This document shows, piece by piece, positions 28,879-38,223 of a DNA stretch of 64,000 nt. The stretch lies in NCBI RefSeq assembly GCF_010671595.1, contig NZ_JAABOP010000001.1, positions 1,674,001-1,738,000 of the forward strand. Reading direction: 5' to 3'. Source of the stretch: Muriicola jejuensis (GTDB lineage: Bacteria; Bacteroidota; Bacteroidia; Flavobacteriales; Flavobacteriaceae). Position 1 is the stretch's first letter; every line of letters begins with the position of its first letter. The translations under genes and the position numbers were made by a program. The notes beneath the pieces are model-generated. The model was not told the origin of the DNA and made no database searches. It saw only the letters and a program-made list of their open reading frames with translations.

Positions 28879-29313
28879 CTAAAGGGAAGGCCTGGCATCC
28901 AGCAAACTGCCCACAGTATCCCAGAATACGGCCCCTGCGGGATTTTCATCCTGACTTACCGGTTTCTCTTTCAAATATTCCCTGACCATAAGTTTGAGAT
29001 GGGTGATCTGGGCGTTTTCCCCGTAGAAATTCTCAAAGGCCATATCCCAGGTGGCAAAGGCGCGTTTTTCCCTTACCTCAAAACTCAGCAATTCCACGTT
29101 TTTATGACGTGGATCTGCCTTGATCTTGTCAAAAAGAGTAAGCACTTTGTATTGATTTCCTTCCAGGTACTGGATAAATTCCCCGTGGTGGTAAAGCAGA
29201 CAACCCGTGATTCCAAGGATTCGGTTGTTCTCTTTTGCCCTTTCAAGCATTAACTGGATCTGGTCCAGGGTGAAATTCGGTTTTGCTACTGACCGATATA
29301 CCAGACTGAACAT
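28879..29313 (-). CDS. BLUF-domain blue-light sensor
   Basis: A 144-residue flavin photoreceptor made almost only of the BLUF domain. The residues of the light-driven hydrogen-bond switch are present: Tyr6 (LVYRS), Asn30 (NNRILGITG), Gln48 (FIQYLEG), and both Trp89 and Met91 in FATWDMAFENF. The C-terminal 50 residues are helical with no output domain, so it should signal by binding a partner. It is convergent with the pseudouridine synthase gene and has TATCTTTA as a near -7 box at 29348-29355. The partner and the response controlled are not indicated by the neighbourhood. Confidence 0.93.
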   Translation of the reverse strand: MFSLVYRSVAKPNFTLDQIQLMLERAKENNRILGITGCLLYHHGEFIQYLEGNQYKVLTLFDKIKADPRHKNVELLSFEVREKRAFATWDMAFENFYGENAQITHLKLMVREYLKEKPVSQDENPAGAVFWDTVGSLLDARPSL

Positions 29314-29383: not shown

Positions 29384-30667
29384 TTACTTTGAAAATCGCT
29401 GCATCTTCTCACGGATCTCCTTCAGGCAGAGGTTCCCCAGGCTGCCCAGGTGGGTGTGCACAGCGGCTTTCGGAGATTGAAATTCGCCTTTTTCTACAAG
29501 GAGAGCAACTTGTTTATAGGCATCGCGAAAGGGTATGCCCTTTTTTACAAGCTCATTGAGGGCGTCTACTGTGAACAGGAGGTCGTACTTCGGATCGTCC
29601 AAAATATCTTTCTTCACTTCAATCTTACTCAGGCTGAAGGCCATGATATCCAGACAGGCCTTTAACTCCTGAATGGCCGGGATCATGCTGTTCTTCGTCA
29701 GTTGCAAATCCCTGTGGTACCCGCTGGGCAGGTTGGTTAGGAGCATGGACAACTCATTGGGAAGTGCCTGGATGACATTGCATTTGGCACGGACCAGCTC
29801 AAACACGTCCGGATTCTTCTTATGTGGCATAATGCTGCTGCCGGTAGTAAGGTCGTCGGGAAAGGAAATAAAATTAAAGTTCTGGCTCATGTACAGGCAA
29901 ACGTCCATAGCGAGCTTAGACAGGGTACCCCCAAGAGAGGCCATGGCTCTTGCCGTACTAACTTCCACCTTCCCTCTCCCCATTTGTGCGGCCACCACAT
30001 TGTATTTGAGCGTGCTAAATCCGAGTTCGCTTGTGGTCATAGCCCTGTCTATGGGAAAGGAACTCCCATAGCCCGCAGCACTTCCCAGGGGGTTCTGATC
30101 GGCTATGTCTGCAGCGGCCCTGAGCAGGATCATATCATCTACCAGGCTCTCGGCATAGGCAGAGAACCACAGCCCGAAAGAGGAAGGCATGGCCACCTGC
30201 AGGTGTGTGTATCCAGGCAATAGTACTTTATGATGGGTCTCGGCCAGCCCGATAAGCAGGTCAAACAGATCCAGGACCTGGCGTTTCAGGGTTTTTATTT
30301 CTTCTTTGATGTACAGTTGAATGGCTACCAGCACCTGGTCATTCCTGGAGCGGGCGGTGTGTATCTTCTTTCCAGTATCTCCCAGTTTTTGAATGAGCAG
30401 GTATTCGATCTTGGAGTGCATGTCCTCAAAATCATCTTCAATTGTGAAGGTCCCAGCCTCGATCGTAAGGGCAATGGCATCCAGTTCCGCCAGGATGGAC
30501 TCACCCTCTTCCTTCTCAAGCAGCCCGATCGACTGTAGCATACGGCAATGTGCCTTGGAGGCAATTACATCGTATTTGGCCAGCAACAGATCGAGTTCCC
30601 GGTCATTTCCCACTGTAAATCGATCGATCTTCTGATCTGTTTTCAATCCTTTTTCCCATAATTTCAT
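29384..30667 (-). CDS. argH: argininosuccinate lyase
   Basis: The last arginine step: cleaves argininosuccinate to arginine and fumarate. From the ATG at 30667 (MKLWEKGLKTDQKIDRF) it has 427 residues, a little shorter than typical enzymes of about 460. The lyase-superfamily signature TGSSIMPHKKNPDVFEL is intact, as are HTARSRNDQVL and GYTHLQVAMPSSFGLW. The open frame extends upstream into argE (to 30802), but that part is out-of-frame reading of argE. It is the ninth and last gene of the operon. Confidence 0.94.
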   Translation of the reverse strand: MKLWEKGLKTDQKIDRFTVGNDRELDLLLAKYDVIASKAHCRMLQSIGLLEKEEGESILAELDAIALTIEAGTFTIEDDFEDMHSKIEYLLIQKLGDTGKKIHTARSRNDQVLVAIQLYIKEEIKTLKRQVLDLFDLLIGLAETHHKVLLPGYTHLQVAMPSSFGLWFSAYAESLVDDMILLRAAADIADQNPLGSAAGYGSSFPIDRAMTTSELGFSTLKYNVVAAQMGRGKVEVSTARAMASLGGTLSKLAMDVCLYMSQNFNFISFPDDLTTGSSIMPHKKNPDVFELVRAKCNVIQALPNELSMLLTNLPSGYHRDLQLTKNSMIPAIQELKACLDIMAFSLSKIEVKKDILDDPKYDLLFTVDALNELVKKGIPFRDAYKQVALLVEKGEFQSPKAAVHTHLGSLGNLCLKEIREKMQRFSK

Positions 30668-30680
30668 AAGAAGCTGGTCT

Positions 30681-31769
30681 TTAAGGTTTAGGGATCTTTG
30701 CGAACAAAAACCCATGGAGTAATTTGATGTAAAGGGATATCCCTTCCTCGATCTCAGAGACAAAAATGTACTCATCCGCACTGTGCGATCGCCTGCTGTC
30801 ACCCGGTCCCATTTTAAGGGAGGGGCAACTGAGCGCAGCCTGATCAGAAAGGGTCGGTGAACCGTAGGTCTCCCGCCCCAAAGCGATGCCGCTTTGTACC
30901 AGAAGGTGATCCTTAGGAATGGAGGATGAATTCAAGTGAAGTGACCTCGGCTTTAATTTGCAAGGTGCCTGTTCCTGAAGTATTTCCACCACCTCCTGGT
31001 TCGTATACCGGTCATTTACCCGAACATCAATGACCAGGTTCACCCCGGCAGGGACTACGTTATGCTGACTTCCCCCTTGGATCTGGGTCACCGTGAGTTT
31101 AACCTCCCCCAGGACTTCGGAGACTTTCGGGAATTTGAAATCCCGGAACCATTCCAGGACCTCTATGCAGTTATAGAGGGCATTGTCTGTATTGGGATGC
31201 GCGGCATGTGAAGGGGTCCCGCTGACCTCGGCATCGAAGACCACCAGCCCTTTTTCTGCGATGGCCAGTTGCATCAGGGTGGGTTCACCTACTATAGCGA
31301 CATCAATAGGAGGCAGTATCTCCAGCATGGAATTCAGGCCATTGGGCCCCGAACTCTCCTCTTCAGCCGAGGCAACCATAATGAGGTTATGGCTTAGTCC
31401 TTCCTTTTCGTAGAAATAGGTAAAAGTGGCGATCAGAGATACCAGTGCCCCCCCGGCATCATTGCTTCCAAGACCGAATAATTTTCCGTCCTCCACGGAA
31501 GGCTGGAAAGGATTCCTGGTATAGGCTGTATTGGGGCGGACCGTGTCGTGGTGAGAATTCAGGAGCAGGGTGGGCTTGTTCTTGTCAAAGAACTTGTTGA
31601 AAGCATACACGTTGTTCTCCTGCCGTTTGTGGGGAATACCCCTTTCTATGAACCATCCTTCGAGAAGCAGGGCCGTATGGTTCTCTTCCGAAGAGAAGGA
31701 AGGCGTTGCGATCAGCTTTTTCAGCAACTCTATGGCGTCTTTTGTGAGTGAGGAGATCTCTTGCTTCAT
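30681..31769 (-). CDS. argE: M20 deacylase of arginine synthesis (N-acyl-ornithine/citrulline deacylase)
   Basis: A 362-residue zinc peptidase of family M20. Metal-binding segments are LLNSHHDTVRPN, GLGSNDAGGALVSL and SAEEESSGPNG. In operons with an ArgF'-type transcarbamylase this enzyme removes the acyl group from N-acylcitrulline rather than from acylornithine, yielding citrulline for ArgG. Whether the acyl group is acetyl or succinyl depends on the transcarbamylase (see 32542-33483). It overlaps argB by four bases. Confidence 0.92.
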   Translation of the reverse strand: MKQEISSLTKDAIELLKKLIATPSFSSEENHTALLLEGWFIERGIPHKRQENNVYAFNKFFDKNKPTLLLNSHHDTVRPNTAYTRNPFQPSVEDGKLFGLGSNDAGGALVSLIATFTYFYEKEGLSHNLIMVASAEEESSGPNGLNSMLEILPPIDVAIVGEPTLMQLAIAEKGLVVFDAEVSGTPSHAAHPNTDNALYNCIEVLEWFRDFKFPKVSEVLGEVKLTVTQIQGGSQHNVVPAGVNLVIDVRVNDRYTNQEVVEILQEQAPCKLKPRSLHLNSSSIPKDHLLVQSGIALGRETYGSPTLSDQAALSCPSLKMGPGDSRRSHSADEYIFVSEIEEGISLYIKLLHGFLFAKIPKP

Positions 31770-32545
31770 AGGGTAAGGGTTGTATAGGCTGATGGATTTG
31801 GTCGGAGCATGCCGATATTTCCCACACAGACCTTGTGTACCGAATGGTCGAGGGCGTGGAAGCAGTTTTCCAGTTTGGGGAGCATCCCCTCACCTATGGT
31901 TTTTTCCCGTATCAGGCTGTAGTAAGATTGCTTGTTGATATGGGGGATCACGGAAAGGTCATTTCCGATATCAGAGAGCACTCCCGCTTTTTCAAAGCAA
32001 TAGTATAGAGTGGTCCGATAATCCCTGCTGAGGGCGATGGCAAGCTCGGATGCGATGGTATCTGCGTTGGTATTCAGCATTTGTCCGCCTTTATCGCAGC
32101 TAAGGGCGCAGAAAACAGGTACCAGGCCGATTTCCAGAAAGGTACGCAGGGCATCTGTATGAATAGAAACGATGTCGCCCACGAAGCCAAAATCAATGGG
32201 TACTACCGGTCTTTTCACAGCCCGGATGATCCCTGCATCCGCACCGCTAAGACCGATGGCATTGCATTCCATGGCCTGCAGTTCACTGACGATGGACTTG
32301 TTAATGAGCCCGGCATACACCATGATGGCCACCTCCAGGCTCCCTTTGTCCGTGATGCGTCTTCCATTGACCATGGTCGTACGTATCCCGAGTCTTTCCC
32401 CGAGGCGGGTTGCCTCTTTCCCCCCTCCGTGGACGAGGATCTTGGGGCCTTCTACCTTGTGGAAGAGTCTCAGGAAACGAGTGAGCTCCCCTTTGTTCTC
32501 GATGACGTTGCCACCGATCTTGATGACGGATAAAGCGGGTTTCAT
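31766..32545 (-). CDS. argB: N-acetylglutamate kinase family (possibly acting on N-succinylglutamate)
   Basis: A 259-residue amino-acid kinase. The N-terminal VIKIGGNVIENKGELTRFL binds the ATP phosphate, and VHGGGKEATRLGERLG and NTNADTIASELAIAL are family signatures. It phosphorylates the acyl-glutamate made by the first enzyme. It lacks the N-terminal extension of arginine-inhibited hexameric kinases, so feedback control probably lies elsewhere. It overlaps argF' and argE by four bases each. Confidence 0.92.
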   Translation of the reverse strand: MKPALSVIKIGGNVIENKGELTRFLRLFHKVEGPKILVHGGGKEATRLGERLGIRTTMVNGRRITDKGSLEVAIMVYAGLINKSIVSELQAMECNAIGLSGADAGIIRAVKRPVVPIDFGFVGDIVSIHTDALRTFLEIGLVPVFCALSCDKGGQMLNTNADTIASELAIALSRDYRTTLYYCFEKAGVLSDIGNDLSVIPHINKQSYYSLIREKTIGEGMLPKLENCFHALDHSVHKVCVGNIGMLRPNPSAYTTLTL

Positions 32546-33483
32546 AGGGATTCCAATATTTTCATCAGTGCGACCTGGGCCGCAAAGGTCCGGTTGTTGG
32601 CCTGTTCTATGACCAGAGAATTGCTGCTGTCCAGTACAGCGTCTTCGACAATCACGTTTCGCCTAACAGGGAGACAGTGCATAAAATAGGCCTTTCCCAA
32701 TTTTTCGCGGGTGATCATCCAGTGGGGGTCATCAGATAAAACGGCTCCATAGGGCCTGCTGGCACTCCAGTTCTTGACATATACAAAATCAGCGTCCTTC
32801 AGGGCCTCATTCTGGTCGTGGAAAACGGGAATATCCCTGACTATTTCGGGATTGAGCTCATAGCCCTTTGGATGGGTGATGGAAAAGTCGAACTGAGGGT
32901 TGTTCTTCATGATCCCCGCAAAGGAGTTGGGCACTGCCTGGGGCAGGGCCCTGGGATGGGGTGCCCAGGAAAGCACCACCTTGGGCCTGGTCGTTTGTTG
33001 ATATTCTGTGATGGTGATGAGGTCTGCCAGGGCTTGCAGGGGATGGCCGGTGGCGCTTTCCAGGTTCAGGATGGGGATGGTGGCGTACTTTTTAAAACCG
33101 TGGAGAACCTGTTCCGCTTCATCTTTTTCGCGGTCTTTCAGGGAAGCGAATGCCCGTACCCCCAGGACATCGCAGTACTGTGAAATGACCCGGGCTGCCT
33201 CCCTGATATGTTCGGCCTTGCCCTGGTCCATGATGGTGCCGTCCTCGAATTCCAGAGCCCAGCCCTCATTGCCGATATTCATGGTCATACAGTGCATTCC
33301 CAGGTGGTAGGCCGCTCTCTGTGTGCTGAGTCGGGTCCGGAGGCTGTTGTTGAAGAACAGAAGTCCCAGTACCTTGCCCTTTCCTTTCTTTTCGAATTTA
33401 AAAGGTTCTTTTTTGCATTCTGCCGCAAGGGATAACCAGGATGCGGTTGAATCTATATCGTCTACATGGAGAAAGTGCTTCAT
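32542..33483 (-). CDS. argF': N-succinylornithine/N-acetylornithine transcarbamylase; Ala90 predicts succinyl
   Basis: Transfers the carbamoyl group of carbamoyl phosphate to an N-acylated ornithine. The 313 residues carry the carbamoyl-phosphate motif NNSLRTRLSTQ, HPLQALADLIT, SWAPHPRALPQAVPNSF and HCLPVRRN, which place it with the Bacteroides SOTCase and Xanthomonas AOTCase and not with ordinary ornithine transcarbamylase. The specificity position (Pro90 in the B. fragilis SOTCase, Glu92 in the X. campestris AOTCase, as I recall the published work) is Ala90 here (IMDQGKAEH; codon GCC at 33214-33216). Published exchanges of that Glu to Pro, Ser, Val or Ala turned AOTCase into SOTCase, so succinylornithine is the predicted substrate. 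Confidence 0.93.
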   Translation of the reverse strand: MKHFLHVDDIDSTASWLSLAAECKKEPFKFEKKGKGKVLGLLFFNNSLRTRLSTQRAAYHLGMHCMTMNIGNEGWALEFEDGTIMDQGKAEHIREAARVISQYCDVLGVRAFASLKDREKDEAEQVLHGFKKYATIPILNLESATGHPLQALADLITITEYQQTTRPKVVLSWAPHPRALPQAVPNSFAGIMKNNPQFDFSITHPKGYELNPEIVRDIPVFHDQNEALKDADFVYVKNWSASRPYGAVLSDDPHWMITREKLGKAYFMHCLPVRRNVIVEDAVLDSSNSLVIEQANNRTFAAQVALMKILESL

Positions 33484-34607
33484 GCCAGTTCCCTTTTTAA
33501 TGCATTAAAAAATTGATCCAGGTGATCCTTGCTCACATTCAGGGCAGGGAGGATACGCAGAACGCTTTTGTCCTTGGCGCTTCCTGTAAAGATATGTTGT
33601 TTGGTGATCAGTCTTTTTCTCAAAGAGGCCACCTCAAAGCCGAATTCCAGCCCGAGCATAAGCCCCCTGCCTTTCACCCGTTTTACTTCAGGAATCCTGG
33701 CAGCGCATGCTGCAAAATAGGATCCTAATTCCTCAGCGTTCTTCATGAGCTGTTCTTTTTCCAGGACTTCCAGTACGGCCAGGGTGGCAGCACAGGCCAG
33801 ATGGTTGCCCCCGAAGGTGGTCCCCAGCAAGCCGTGGGATGCCTTGAATTTCGGATGGATCAGGATGCCACCCACAGGAAACCCATTTCCCATCCCTTTG
33901 GCCATGGAAATGATGTCGGGTTCAATACCGTGGTGCTGAAAGGCGAAGAATTTCCCGCTCCGCCCGAAACCCGACTGTACCTCATCGGCGATAAGGACCA
34001 CATCGTGTTCCCTGCAAAGCCGGGATATTTCCCTGTAAAAAGCAGTCGATGGCTCATCGAGTCCGCCTACGCCCTGTATGGCCTCCAGGATAACGGCGCA
34101 CACATCCCCCTTCGCCATTTCTGCCTCCAGGGCGGTGGCGTCTTCAAAAGGGAGGAAGGTGACCTGTTGCTGGCGGTTGATCGGGGCGTTGATTCCGGGG
34201 TTATCGGTCGTTGCCACCGCAGCGGAAGTACGTCCGTGAAAGCTGTTGTGAAAAGCGATGACCCTGCTTCTTCCCGTGTGAAAGGAGGCGAGTTTCAGGG
34301 CATTTTCATTGGCCTCGGCTCCGGAATTACAAAGGAATAGTCGGTACTCATCACATCCTGAAAGGTAACCTAGCTTCTCCATTAGCTGCTGCTGCAAGGG
34401 ATTCTGGACTGCGTTGCTGTAGAAGGCGATCCTGTCGAGCTGTTCCTTGATGCGACTCACATAATGGGGATGGCCGTGGCCTATGGAGATCACCGCGTGC
34501 CCCCCATACAGGTCGAGGTACTCCACTCCTTGGTCGTCCGTCAGGATTAGTCCTTTGGCGGAGACGGGTGTTATATCGTAAAGGGGGTAAACGTCGAACA
34601 ATTCCAT
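33480..34607 (-). CDS. argD: acylornithine aminotransferase
   Basis: A 375-residue class III PLP transaminase that forms N-acylornithine from the semialdehyde and glutamate. The PLP lysine is in ISMAKGMGNGFPVGG, preceded by LIADEVQSGFGRSG, and the phosphate-binding CNSGAEANENALKLA is intact. Placement between proC and argF' fixes the pathway role; substrate acyl group is set by the pathway. It overlaps argF' by four bases. Confidence 0.94.
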   Translation of the reverse strand: MELFDVYPLYDITPVSAKGLILTDDQGVEYLDLYGGHAVISIGHGHPHYVSRIKEQLDRIAFYSNAVQNPLQQQLMEKLGYLSGCDEYRLFLCNSGAEANENALKLASFHTGRSRVIAFHNSFHGRTSAAVATTDNPGINAPINRQQQVTFLPFEDATALEAEMAKGDVCAVILEAIQGVGGLDEPSTAFYREISRLCREHDVVLIADEVQSGFGRSGKFFAFQHHGIEPDIISMAKGMGNGFPVGGILIHPKFKASHGLLGTTFGGNHLACAATLAVLEVLEKEQLMKNAEELGSYFAACAARIPEVKRVKGRGLMLGLEFGFEVASLRKRLITKQHIFTGSAKDKSVLRILPALNVSKDHLDQFFNALKRELA

Positions 34608-34608
34608 G

Positions 34609-35403
34609 CTACCCTTTTCTTATTTGGGTGATCTTCTCAAAAGAGGCGACAATCCCCCGGATCAGGGAGGAACTGAGCCCCTGGTGTTCCATCTCATTGA
34701 GACCTTCAATGGTACAGCCCATAGGCGTGGTCACCCGGTCGATTTCTTCCTCAGGATGGTTGCCCGATTCGATAAGCAGGGAGGCAGCCCCATTGCAGGT
34801 GTGCATGGCCAGTTCCTGTGCCTCCTTGGCATCAAATCCGAGCTGAATGGCTCCCTGGGTGGTCGCCCGGATCAACCGCATCCAGAAGGCGATGCCACTG
34901 GCACATATTACCGTTGCGGCCTGCATCTGGGATTCCGGGATCTCCATGGAATGACCCATGCGATTAAAGATCGCCTTGGCGAGTTCAATGCGTTTGGCTC
35001 CCATGGCATTGCTGCAGATACAGGTCATGGAACGGCCCACGGAAATGGCCGTATTGGGCATGCTCCTGATAATATAGGCCTCTTTCCCTATAACGGACTC
35101 TATCTTCTGTATGCTGAAACCCGTGATGGTGGATATGACCACGTGCTTATCGGTCAACAGGTCCTTTACCCCGTGGAGGATGGCTTCAAAGTGCCCCGGC
35201 TGTACGGCAAAGATGAGGATGTCGGACTCCCTGACGGCCCTTGCATTATCCGAGGTGACGGTCACGTTGCCGTATTTTTCGTATTCCCTGATCGACTCAG
35301 TATGCCTTTTGGTCAGGAACATGGTGGTGGCCCCGTTGCTGTGGAGAATGCCCTTGGCTATGGAAATCCCCAGGTTGCCTGCTCCTATGATCGCTATTTT
35401 CAT
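34609..35403 (-). CDS. proC: pyrroline-5-carboxylate reductase
   Basis: Makes proline from pyrroline 5-carboxylate with NAD(P)H. The 264-residue protein has the Rossmann loop MKIAIIGAGNLGISIAKGIL, SMPNTAISVGRSMTCIC and the C-terminal GAASLLIESGNHPEEEIDRVTTPMGCTIEGL. It sits inside the arginine operon, one base after which argD begins, as in other flavobacteria. This ties proline and arginine synthesis, both of which draw on glutamate semialdehyde derivatives. Confidence 0.94.
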   Translation of the reverse strand: MKIAIIGAGNLGISIAKGILHSNGATTMFLTKRHTESIREYEKYGNVTVTSDNARAVRESDILIFAVQPGHFEAILHGVKDLLTDKHVVISTITGFSIQKIESVIGKEAYIIRSMPNTAISVGRSMTCICSNAMGAKRIELAKAIFNRMGHSMEIPESQMQAATVICASGIAFWMRLIRATTQGAIQLGFDAKEAQELAMHTCNGAASLLIESGNHPEEEIDRVTTPMGCTIEGLNEMEHQGLSSSLIRGIVASFEKITQIRKG

Positions 35404-35428: not shown

Positions 35429-36403
35429 TTAGTGTACGATCGACTTAAGCCTCAGTCCTGCCTCTTCGTCAAGACCGAACATGAGGTTCATATTTTGCAC
35501 CGCCTGTCCGCTGGCGCCTTTGAGCAAATTATCAATAGCAGAGCTGATCAGTAGCATTCCCTCGTGAAGGTGCAGGTGCAAATGGCATTGATTGGTATTG
35601 ATCACGGGTTTCAAAGAGATTGGCTCCGGTGAGACCTGTGCAAAGGGGGCCTGGGCATAGTAATCGCCATAGAGGGCATAAGCTTCCTCCAGGGACCCTT
35701 TGAAATGCGTGTAGGCAGTTGCCCAGATTCCCCGGGTAAAATCCCCCCGGTTTGGGACGAACCACAGCTTGCCTTTGCGGGATTGTTTGTAAGCGAGGCT
35801 CTCATTGATCTCGTTGAGGTGCTGGTGGGTAAATGCCTTGTAATGAGACATGTTATTTTCCCGCCAGCTGAAATGGGTAGTAGGTGAGAGGCTGACCCCC
35901 GCACCGGTAGATCCCGTGGTGGCATTTACATGGACCTCATCGCCGAGCAACTGCGCGGCTGCCAGAGGGAGCAATGCCAATTGTATAGCCGTGGCAAAGC
36001 AGCCGGGATTGGCAATATTGCCTGCATTTTTGATCTCTTCCCTGTAAAGTTCGGGCAGCCCGTACACAAAATTCCTTCCCTGGAAGGCACTGTCTTTTTT
36101 CAGGCGAAAATCACTGCTGAGATCGATGATCCTGGTCTTTTCAAAAAAGGGATGCTCCTGCAGGAATTTACGGGAATTCCCGTGGCCCAGGCAGAGGAAC
36201 ACCACATCGGTGTCCGGGTCTGCCTTATCCGTAAATTCCAGCGTGGTCACTCCGAGCAGGTCTGTATGTGTGGTTGAGACCCTGGTTCCTGCCCTTGTGG
36301 TGCTGTAGATAAAATTGATCTCGACCTGCGGATGGTGGAGCAAAAGCCTGATAAGCTCTCCCCCCGTATATCCGGATCCTCCTATGATACCTGCTTTAAT
36401 CAT
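35429..36403 (-). CDS. argC: N-acyl-gamma-glutamyl-phosphate reductase
   Basis: Reduces acyl-glutamyl phosphate to the semialdehyde. The 324 residues include the dinucleotide-binding GIIGGSGYTGGELIRLLLHHP and the catalytic cysteine in NPGCFATAIQLALLPL, plus HTHLNEI-like segments (AFTHQHLNEI). It overlaps argG by eight bases. Type 1 family, complete. Confidence 0.94.
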   Translation of the reverse strand: MIKAGIIGGSGYTGGELIRLLLHHPQVEINFIYSTTRAGTRVSTTHTDLLGVTTLEFTDKADPDTDVVFLCLGHGNSRKFLQEHPFFEKTRIIDLSSDFRLKKDSAFQGRNFVYGLPELYREEIKNAGNIANPGCFATAIQLALLPLAAAQLLGDEVHVNATTGSTGAGVSLSPTTHFSWRENNMSHYKAFTHQHLNEINESLAYKQSRKGKLWFVPNRGDFTRGIWATAYTHFKGSLEEAYALYGDYYAQAPFAQVSPEPISLKPVINTNQCHLHLHLHEGMLLISSAIDNLLKGASGQAVQNMNLMFGLDEEAGLRLKSIVH

Positions 36404-37607
36404 GGGTTGTGTTTATCTGGTTAGCGATCTTGCCGGGATTAGACAGGATCTTGATGAACCCCTTGGCATCTTCGGCCGTCCAGGCACGGTTCATTTCGCC
36501 ATAACTGCCGAATTTGGCAGCCATCAGGTCAAAATCCGACCGGATTCCGTTGAGGGTAAATCGATAGGGGTGGAGGGTGACAAACACCTCACCGCTCACA
36601 TGGCGCTGTGTATCTTTCAGGAAGGCTTCTATATTCCTCATTACCTCGTCCAGATAATTTCCTTCGTGCAGGAGCATCCCGTAAAAATTCCCGAGTTGTT
36701 CTTTCTGGAATTGCTGCCATTTGCTGAGGGTGTGTTTCTCCAAAAGGTGATGGGCCTTCAGGATAATCAGGGGTGCTGCCGCCTCAAACCCCACGCGTCC
36801 TTTGATCCCGATGATGGTGTCTCCCACGTGTATGTCCCTTCCAATGGCATAGGCAGAGGCCATGGCCTCCAGTTTCCGGATGTTGTCTACTGGATCACCT
36901 GCCTGTCCGTTTATCGCTTTCAGTTCCCCCCGGTCGAAGGTAAGGGTGACATCTTCAGGTTTTTCCTTCTTTAATGGACTGGGGAATGCTTCATCGGGGA
37001 GTCCCTTCCCCGAGGTGAGGGTCTCGGCCCCTCCTACTGAAGTACCCCACAGGCCTTTGTTGATAGAATATTTGGCCTTTTCCCAGGAATAATCTACTCC
37101 GTTTTCCCTGAGGTAGGTGATCTCCTCTTCCCTTGATAATTGCTGGTCCCGGATAGGGGTGATGATCTCGATCTCGGGCGAGGCGATCTGAAAGATCATA
37201 TCAAACCTAACCTGGTCGTTGCCGGCCCCCGTACTACCGTGGGCGATGGCATGCGCTCCGATCTTTCGGGCGTATGCGGAGATCTCCATGGCCTGGACGA
37301 TGCGCTCGGCACTTACGCTGAGCGGATATGTATTGTTCCTCAGTACATTGCCGAAGATCAGGTATTTCACCACCTTTTCGTAAAAGCTTTGGACGGCGTC
37401 AATAGCATTGTATGAATGTGCACCTAACTCCAAAGCACGTTTTTTGATATCCTCAAGCTCATCTTCAGAGAAACCTCCGGTATTGACGCTGACAGCGTGG
37501 ACTTCGTACCCCAGTTCCTTTGACAGGTACATGGCACAGTAAGAGGTATCCAGGCCACCGGAATAGGCGAGTACCAATTTTTTCTTTTTCGTATTCTCAG
37601 TTTTCAT
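36396..37607 (-). CDS. argG: argininosuccinate synthase
   Basis: Joins citrulline and aspartate with ATP. The 403-residue sequence starts KKKLVLAYSGGLDTSYCAMYL (pyrophosphatase P-loop) and contains AHGSTGAGNDQVRFD. The remainder (for example SINKGLWGTSVGGAE) is typical of a diverged Bacteroidota branch. Second gene of the operon, one base after the GNAT gene. Confidence 0.95.
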   Translation of the reverse strand: MKTENTKKKKLVLAYSGGLDTSYCAMYLSKELGYEVHAVSVNTGGFSEDELEDIKKRALELGAHSYNAIDAVQSFYEKVVKYLIFGNVLRNNTYPLSVSAERIVQAMEISAYARKIGAHAIAHGSTGAGNDQVRFDMIFQIASPEIEIITPIRDQQLSREEEITYLRENGVDYSWEKAKYSINKGLWGTSVGGAETLTSGKGLPDEAFPSPLKKEKPEDVTLTFDRGELKAINGQAGDPVDNIRKLEAMASAYAIGRDIHVGDTIIGIKGRVGFEAAAPLIILKAHHLLEKHTLSKWQQFQKEQLGNFYGMLLHEGNYLDEVMRNIEAFLKDTQRHVSGEVFVTLHPYRFTLNGIRSDFDLMAAKFGSYGEMNRAWTAEDAKGFIKILSNPGKIANQINTTHD

Positions 37608-37608
37608 A

Positions 37609-38223
37609 TCAGGCTTTCTTCTTTTTGAGCAAGAGCTGTTCTTTAATGCTTTTCAAACGCTGAAAGGTCTTGCTGTTCACTTTTCTTTTGTCGTGATTAG
37701 AACTGGCCGGATCGTACAACATCCCTGTACAGAGACACATTTTTCTCTCGGTCCGCGTAAGGATGTCAAAATTCTTGCAGGTCTGGCAACCCTTCCAGAA
37801 TTCCGGATCGTCCGTGAGTTCTGAAAACGTGACGGGTTTATACCCCAGTTCGTAATTCATCTTCATCACGGCCAGCCCCGTAGTGATCCCAAAGATCTTT
37901 GCTTCCGGGAATTTTTTACGGGAGAGGTCAAAGATGGCTTTCTTGATTTTCTTCGCAAGGCCCTGATTCCGGTAATCGGGATGGACGATCAGCCCCGAAT
38001 TGGCTACAAACTTCTGGTGCCCCCATACCTCAATATAGCAGAAGCCCGCAAAACGGTCCCCGTCCAGAGCGATGACGGCATTGCCATTCACGAGTCTCTT
38101 GATAATGTACTCGGGGGTTCTTTTAGCGATACCTGTTCCCCTGATCTTGGCAGATTCCGAGATGGTCTCACTGATGAGGGTCGCGTATTTAATATGGGAT
38201 TCGTTAGCAATTACAATATCCAT
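37609..38223 (-). CDS. GNAT acyltransferase, probable first enzyme of arginine synthesis
   Basis: A 204-residue GNAT protein with the acyl-CoA motif HPDYRNQGLAKKIKKA (about residues 81-96). It heads the arginine operon, which contains no argA or argJ, so it is the likely N-acylglutamate synthase. A four-cysteine pattern, Cys146-x2-Cys149 and Cys163-x-Cys165, near the C-terminus suggests a zinc-binding knuckle not usual in GNATs. If the transcarbamylase is succinyl-specific, this enzyme should use succinyl-CoA. The function is inferred from position. Confidence 0.75.
   Translation of the reverse strand: MDIVIANESHIKYATLISETISESAKIRGTGIAKRTPEYIIKRLVNGNAVIALDGDRFAGFCYIEVWGHQKFVANSGLIVHPDYRNQGLAKKIKKAIFDLSRKKFPEAKIFGITTGLAVMKMNYELGYKPVTFSELTDDPEFWKGCQTCKNFDILTRTERKMCLCTGMLYDPASSNHDKRKVNSKTFQRLKSIKEQLLLKKKKA

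Follow-up and report, generated by a model that had tools for sequence, protein, structure and literature searches.

We asked which acyl group is carried by the intermediates of an arginine operon in the window, by which we mean the whole 64,000-nucleotide stretch of Muriicola jejuensis DNA analysed here. The operon encodes a knotted-type transcarbamylase, ArgF', which might belong with the N-succinylornithine transcarbamylases (SOTCases) or the N-acetylornithine transcarbamylases (AOTCases); an earlier note, aligning the protein by eye, had proposed the former from an alanine at position 90. The genome (3.3 Mb, 26 contigs) encodes only one other member of the transcarbamylase superfamily, pyrB. 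The argF' gene sits in a run of nine consecutive minus-strand genes, from 38223 down to 29384, in the order GNAT-argG-argC-proC-argD-argF'-argB-argE'-argH:

37609 to 38223, minus strand: GNAT acyltransferase (ArgA2 type), predicted N-succinylglutamate synthase (Pfam Acetyltransf_1; co-occurrence)
36396 to 37607, minus strand: argG, argininosuccinate synthase (NF001770, 290.6 bits, cut-off 334; TIGR00032, 266.6 bits, cut-off 268.2; both below cut-off)
35429 to 36403, minus strand: argC, predicted N-succinyl-gamma-glutamyl-phosphate reductase (TIGR01850, 315 bits, cut-off 234)
34609 to 35403, minus strand: proC, pyrroline-5-carboxylate reductase (TIGR00112, 220 bits, cut-off 197)
33480 to 34607, minus strand: argD, predicted N-succinylornithine aminotransferase (TIGR00707, 356 bits, below the cut-off of 410)
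32542 to 33483, minus strand: argF', knotted-type transcarbamylase of 313 aa, predicted N-succinylornithine carbamoyltransferase (PDB matches; A90/P181/I278; NF003384)
33214 to 33216, minus strand: GCC codon of the switch residue Ala90
31766 to 32545, minus strand: argB, predicted N-succinylglutamate kinase (TIGR00761, 174 bits, cut-off 151)
30681 to 31769, minus strand: argE', M20 deacylase, predicted N-succinylcitrulline desuccinylase (PF01546; TIGR01910, 125 bits, below the cut-off of 218)
29384 to 30802, minus strand: argH, argininosuccinate lyase (TIGR00838, 328 bits, cut-off 280, match starting at residue 55)

The real start of argH probably lies further downstream than the listed GTG. 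The argH gene is followed directly, in the same orientation, by one for a BLUF blue-light sensor (28879-29313). Among the best 80 of 585 confirmed named relatives of argF', 58 come from loci of at least 18.9 kb; the full window order is found in 43 of these 58, and 12 more have the same order minus proC alone. A gene of proline synthesis is thereby built into an arginine operon, with proC being present in 46 of the 58 long loci.

To place the window ArgF' among enzymes of known structure, we compared it with PDB chains using phmmer. The top matches are the B. fragilis SOTCase entries 1js1, 2g7m and 2fg6 (E 5e-97 to 7e-97; 327-328 bits), followed by the X. campestris AOTCase entries (E ~1e-53; 182-185 bits). 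The alignment with the B. fragilis chains runs from residue 1 to beyond residue 190 without a gap, which bears out the gapless specificity loop seen by eye (IMDQGKAEH in the window protein, IMDGDKPEH in B. fragilis). A MAFFT alignment, in which the X. campestris row begins at residue 3 and the true residue number is the printed index plus 2, places A90 of the window protein opposite P90 of B. fragilis and E92 of X. campestris, P181 opposite X. campestris N185, and I278 opposite X. campestris K302. The switch residue is therefore Ala90, as the earlier note had read it, and no Glu stands at that position. The Pro-rich loop typical of the knotted enzymes, WAPHPRALPQAVPN, starting at residue 173, and the Trp of the 80's loop, W75, also align with B. 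fragilis. A review by the enzyme's discoverers assigns Glu92/Asn185/Lys302 to the acetyl enzymes and A, S, P, V or Q, then P, then V, I or E to the succinyl enzymes (PMC4581275; statements from the literature refer, here and below, to extracts of the papers cited). The window protein carries the succinyl type at all three positions (Ala90, Pro181, Ile278) and has Ala/Pro/Ile in place of the AOTCase set, which strengthens a single-residue argument to three of three. The same review names E142, H176, R178, K236 and R278 as second-substrate residues of the B. fragilis enzyme, along with W75 and F112; in the alignment all the counterparts are kept in the window protein, as E142, H176, R178, K237, R274, W75 and F112. 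The location of argF' within an arginine biosynthesis cluster is a further mark of the SOTCases. Taken together, the discriminators, the substrate anchors and the operon support N-succinylornithine as the predicted substrate, a prediction already in print.

Ala90 is also shared within the genus. All seven ArgF' genes read from the genus, counting that of the window, have Ala in an identical IMDQGKAEH loop, so Ala90 is no chance match. The matches in genomes of the same genus are 74-88% identical to the window protein, and two of the eight other genomes of the genus, both fragmented, gave no ArgF' match. Among the matches listed, the closest named relative is from an uncultured Muriicola (74% identity), and the remaining named ones are Flavobacteriaceae or flavobacterial.

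We then asked how common this residue is in the phylum. A strict DNA pattern for the loop, with matches in only 6 of 296 genomes, was too narrow for a survey of residue 90, and we replaced it by a profile search of 198 Bacteroidota genomes, 97 of which matched at 1e-40, and read all 97 genes. (One strict-pattern match with F at the switch position, L036, was dropped, as it had no transcarbamylase match at 1e-20.) Position 90 was A in 46, V in 24, S in 16, T in 7, Q in 3 and I in 1, and Glu was found in none of these 97 sampled enzymes; Ala is thus common at this position in Bacteroidota. In the 78 genes nearer to that of the window the residues were A28, V23, S16, T7, Q3 and I1, and in the 19 farther ones A18 and V1. 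The position equivalent to Asn185 was P in 94 and A in 3, and that equivalent to Lys302 was V in 46, E in 27, I in 23 and K, the acetyl-type Lys, in 1. Among the best 80 of the 585 confirmed named relatives, which are hence close ones, position 90 was S in 50 and A in 30. The eight genes with Thr or Ile at the switch position (L195, L202, L203, L206, L207, L209, L210 and L212) fall outside the published residue lists for SOTCases and AOTCases alike. On a tree of 209 sequences, built without three repeats (L037 of L161, L038 of L150 and L003 of the window gene), parsimony gives about 22 changes at residue 90.

For the co-occurrence of these genes we examined 60 genomes, including that of the window, and kept the 49 with a completeness of 90% or more and a contamination of 5% or less. 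ArgF' and ArgE' were both present in 29 of the 49 and both missing in 20. The GNAT was found in 28 of the 29 genomes with ArgF' (the exception is G025) and in none of the 20 that lack ArgF'. Of the 11 genomes left out for quality, two, both fragmented, depart from this pattern: in G005, ArgE' and the GNAT occur without an ArgF' match, and in G007 the GNAT occurs alone. This co-occurrence supports a single dedicated pathway.

Our best explanation is that the window protein is an anabolic N-succinylornithine transcarbamylase in a succinylated arginine pathway with the GNAT, ArgB, ArgC, ArgD, the M20 enzyme, ArgG and ArgH, to which we give a probability of roughly 0.88. The GNAT enzyme would succinylate glutamate, ArgB, ArgC and ArgD would convert the product to N-succinylornithine, and ArgF' would transfer the carbamoyl group to give N-succinylcitrulline, from which the M20 enzyme would take off succinate before ArgG and ArgH carry out the final steps to arginine. 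With its small side chain, residue 90 may leave space for the longer succinyl group, which in the acetyl enzyme would clash with Glu92 or be repelled by it. In the literature consulted on the pathway we came across no assay for a natural Ala90 enzyme or for the acyl donor of the GNAT, and so we infer the acyl group. Succinyl use by ArgB, ArgC, ArgD and ArgE' is likewise predicted from the shared pathway rather than from their own sequences.

This explanation has to be weighed against others, whose probabilities and its own are not mutually exclusive. The operon might instead run on acetylated intermediates, ArgF' being an N-acetylornithine transcarbamylase in which Ala90 is neutral. The NCBIfam model NF003384 does give the window protein the name N-acetylornithine carbamoyltransferase, with 290 bits where the cut-off is 288, and BT3761, a GNAT of the window kind, shares more than 50% identity with Cabys_1732, for which N-acetylglutamate synthase activity has been described (PMC7311316), so that homology of the GNAT leaves the acyl donor undecided. 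Two other observations sit uneasily with a succinyl enzyme. R178, a succinyl anchor, is replaced by Lys in 87 of 114 relatives and is also Lys in the X. campestris acetyl enzyme (the 114 include L033 and L034, which lie outside the 97-gene sample and are biased in having come from the strict DNA pattern, and leave out L002 and L035, copies of the window gene), and within the survey stand the eight enzymes with T or I at position 90 and the one with the acetyl-type Lys at the third position. However, the two discriminators beyond residue 90 are likewise of the SOTCase type, similarity to the SOTCase far outscores that to the AOTCase, and Glu is absent from the switch position throughout the 97 enzymes, which makes an acetylated pathway improbable. 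Somewhat less improbable, though still unlikely, is a permissive enzyme that takes both acyl groups and leaves the GNAT synthase alone to set the cellular one, which would be compatible with our best explanation. Loss of the Glu side chain may do no more than loosen the pocket. Position 90 can be A, S, V, T, Q, I or P and has changed about 22 times on the tree, as noted above, and in distant Bacteroidota, enzymes whose three discriminators read A/V, P/A and V occur with two unrelated candidate first enzymes. The published mutants, on the other hand, are described as switched in specificity, beyond mere relaxation (PMC7311316, PMC4581275). The PDB holds such switch mutants: in 3l02, residue 92 of the acetyl enzyme is Ala, and in 2g7m, residue 90 of the B. 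fragilis enzyme is Glu. Entries 3l04, 3l05 and 3l06 are reportedly the Pro, Ser and Val forms of the acetyl enzyme, and the switch-residue experiment reportedly goes back to Shi et al. 2007.

A further alternative is that the M20 enzyme of the operon, together with ArgD, doubles as DapE and DapC in lysine synthesis, so that the two pathways would share the succinyl chemistry. A DapD is encoded in the window's own genome (L131:1480-2292, C18), a scan of 7 of the 18 other M20 matches in that genome found none with a DapE model at E 1e-40 or better, and DapE is a gap in Echinicola and Pedobacter according to GapMind (PMC7311316). DapD was found in 41 of the 49 good genomes, but 16 of the 49 keep it without ArgE', ArgF' or the GNAT, and four have ArgE' without a DapD match. 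We therefore rejected the M20 desuccinylase doubling as DapE as a general rule, and regard such cross-use as very improbable.

Returning to the transcarbamylases, 19 of the 97 ArgF' genes (L171-L189) group with the X. campestris enzyme, the sole acetyl-type sequence in the midpoint-rooted tree (support 0.999). These 19 distant proteins score higher against the X. campestris AOTCase than against the B. fragilis SOTCase, and the three scanned, those of L238, L245 and L249, pass the NCBIfam AOTCase model widely (392-488 bits against 288), yet all 19 have A or V at the first discriminator position, P or A at the second and V at the third. All 19 operons have argG, argC, argD, argF' and argB in that order, with argE near in 12 and argH in 11. 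In 15 of the 19, argG and argC are separated by a gene, in the same orientation, for an uncharacterised P-loop protein of roughly 350 residues:

L238-L243, L245, L247 and L250-L256, argG-argC interval: P-loop protein gene, for example L245:11800-12840, minus strand

The protein has an invariant Walker-A motif (SGT-M-TGKT). Its Pfam matches, to DUF1611 or other P-loop families, are all sub-threshold, no NCBIfam model matched above its cut-off, and searches of solved structures gave only weak P-loop matches to dethiobiotin synthetase. One of these proteins is 26% identical to an annotated DUF1611 protein from a Sulfitobacter plasmid across 92% of its length. A relative in the window's own genome (L123:443-1474, minus strand; 25% identity) overlaps by one base an M20 hydrolase gene (L123:1474-2634, minus strand). 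Another, 28% identical, occurs on the Priestia megaterium plasmid NZ_CP085446.1 (84726-93631; L280). It is clustered there with genes for an ornithine carbamoyltransferase, two ATP-grasp proteins, an M20 metallopeptidase and a member of the PEP-mutase family, a set that resembles a natural-product cluster.

A genome-wide search for the window GNAT at E 1e-6 found it in 5 of the 19 distant genomes, namely the four that lack the P-loop gene and G088, where both occur; 14 of the 15 P-loop carriers, and thus 14 of the 19 genomes, have no GNAT match, and none lacks both genes (Fisher p 0.0013 within the 19, shared ancestry not corrected). Among 20 nearer genomes, hand-picked for varied residues, the GNAT was found in all and no P-loop gene lay within the 10-18 kb around argF'. 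The DUF1611 family presumably includes DgcN, a D-glutamate N-acetyltransferase. If it does, a relative that acylates L-glutamate is a natural guess. The dgcN gene itself serves D-glutamate racemisation and is found in Bacteroidia and Rhodothermia (PMC12363236). We consider it an even bet that the P-loop protein, and not a GNAT, performs the first arginine step in these genomes as a new, non-homologous N-acylglutamate synthase, in which case the Glu-type AOTCase of Xanthomonas would be a late derivative of Ala-bearing ancestors. Such an enzyme could supply the missing start of the arginine pathway for a group of Bacteroidota. We treat this lead as unpublished solely because no paper that ties DUF1611 or DgcN to arginine was found by title or abstract.

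The window enzyme itself fits well among known systems. Most Bacteroidetes appear to make arginine via succinylated intermediates, 61 of 69 have S, P, A or V at the switch position, and fitness data on the pathway come from Bacteroides thetaiotaomicron, Echinicola and Pedobacter (GapMind, PMC7311316). B. fragilis ArgB is an N-succinylglutamate kinase (PMC7311316, citing a thesis), and the GNAT ArgA2, of which we infer the window GNAT to be an orthologue, has been proposed as the N-succinylglutamate synthase of Bacteroidetes (PMC9026213). The succinyl-type prediction is thus supported, although it is already published and describes what is usual in the phylum; a reading of one residue by eye is confirmed and the known picture is unchanged. 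The earlier note's expectation that standard annotation would misname enzymes of the operon holds for ArgF', given the NF003384 label, which would supply the wrong substrate to metabolic models of marine flavobacteria. Like the window protein, the B. fragilis SOTCase (1js1, 2fg6) has the gapless switch loop, the Pro-rich loop, the anchors and the equivalents of P181 and I278, but it has Pro rather than Ala at position 90. A second contrast is genomic: the window argF' lies within one arginine operon, whereas argF' of G294, whose product is close to the B. fragilis enzyme (618 bits), has no other arg gene within about 8 kb; the GNATs of the two genomes are 59% identical. The X. campestris AOTCase (3kzc and its mutants) belongs to the same superfamily and shares the motifs of the carbamoyl-phosphate site, but has Glu92/Asn185/Lys302 where the window enzyme has Ala/Pro/Ile. 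The succinylated pathway that GapMind describes for Bacteroidetes has the same enzyme types as the window, among them a GNAT for the first step and a distant desuccinylase, and in the extracts of that paper we see no essential difference (PMC7311316); the window is one more carrier of this pathway.
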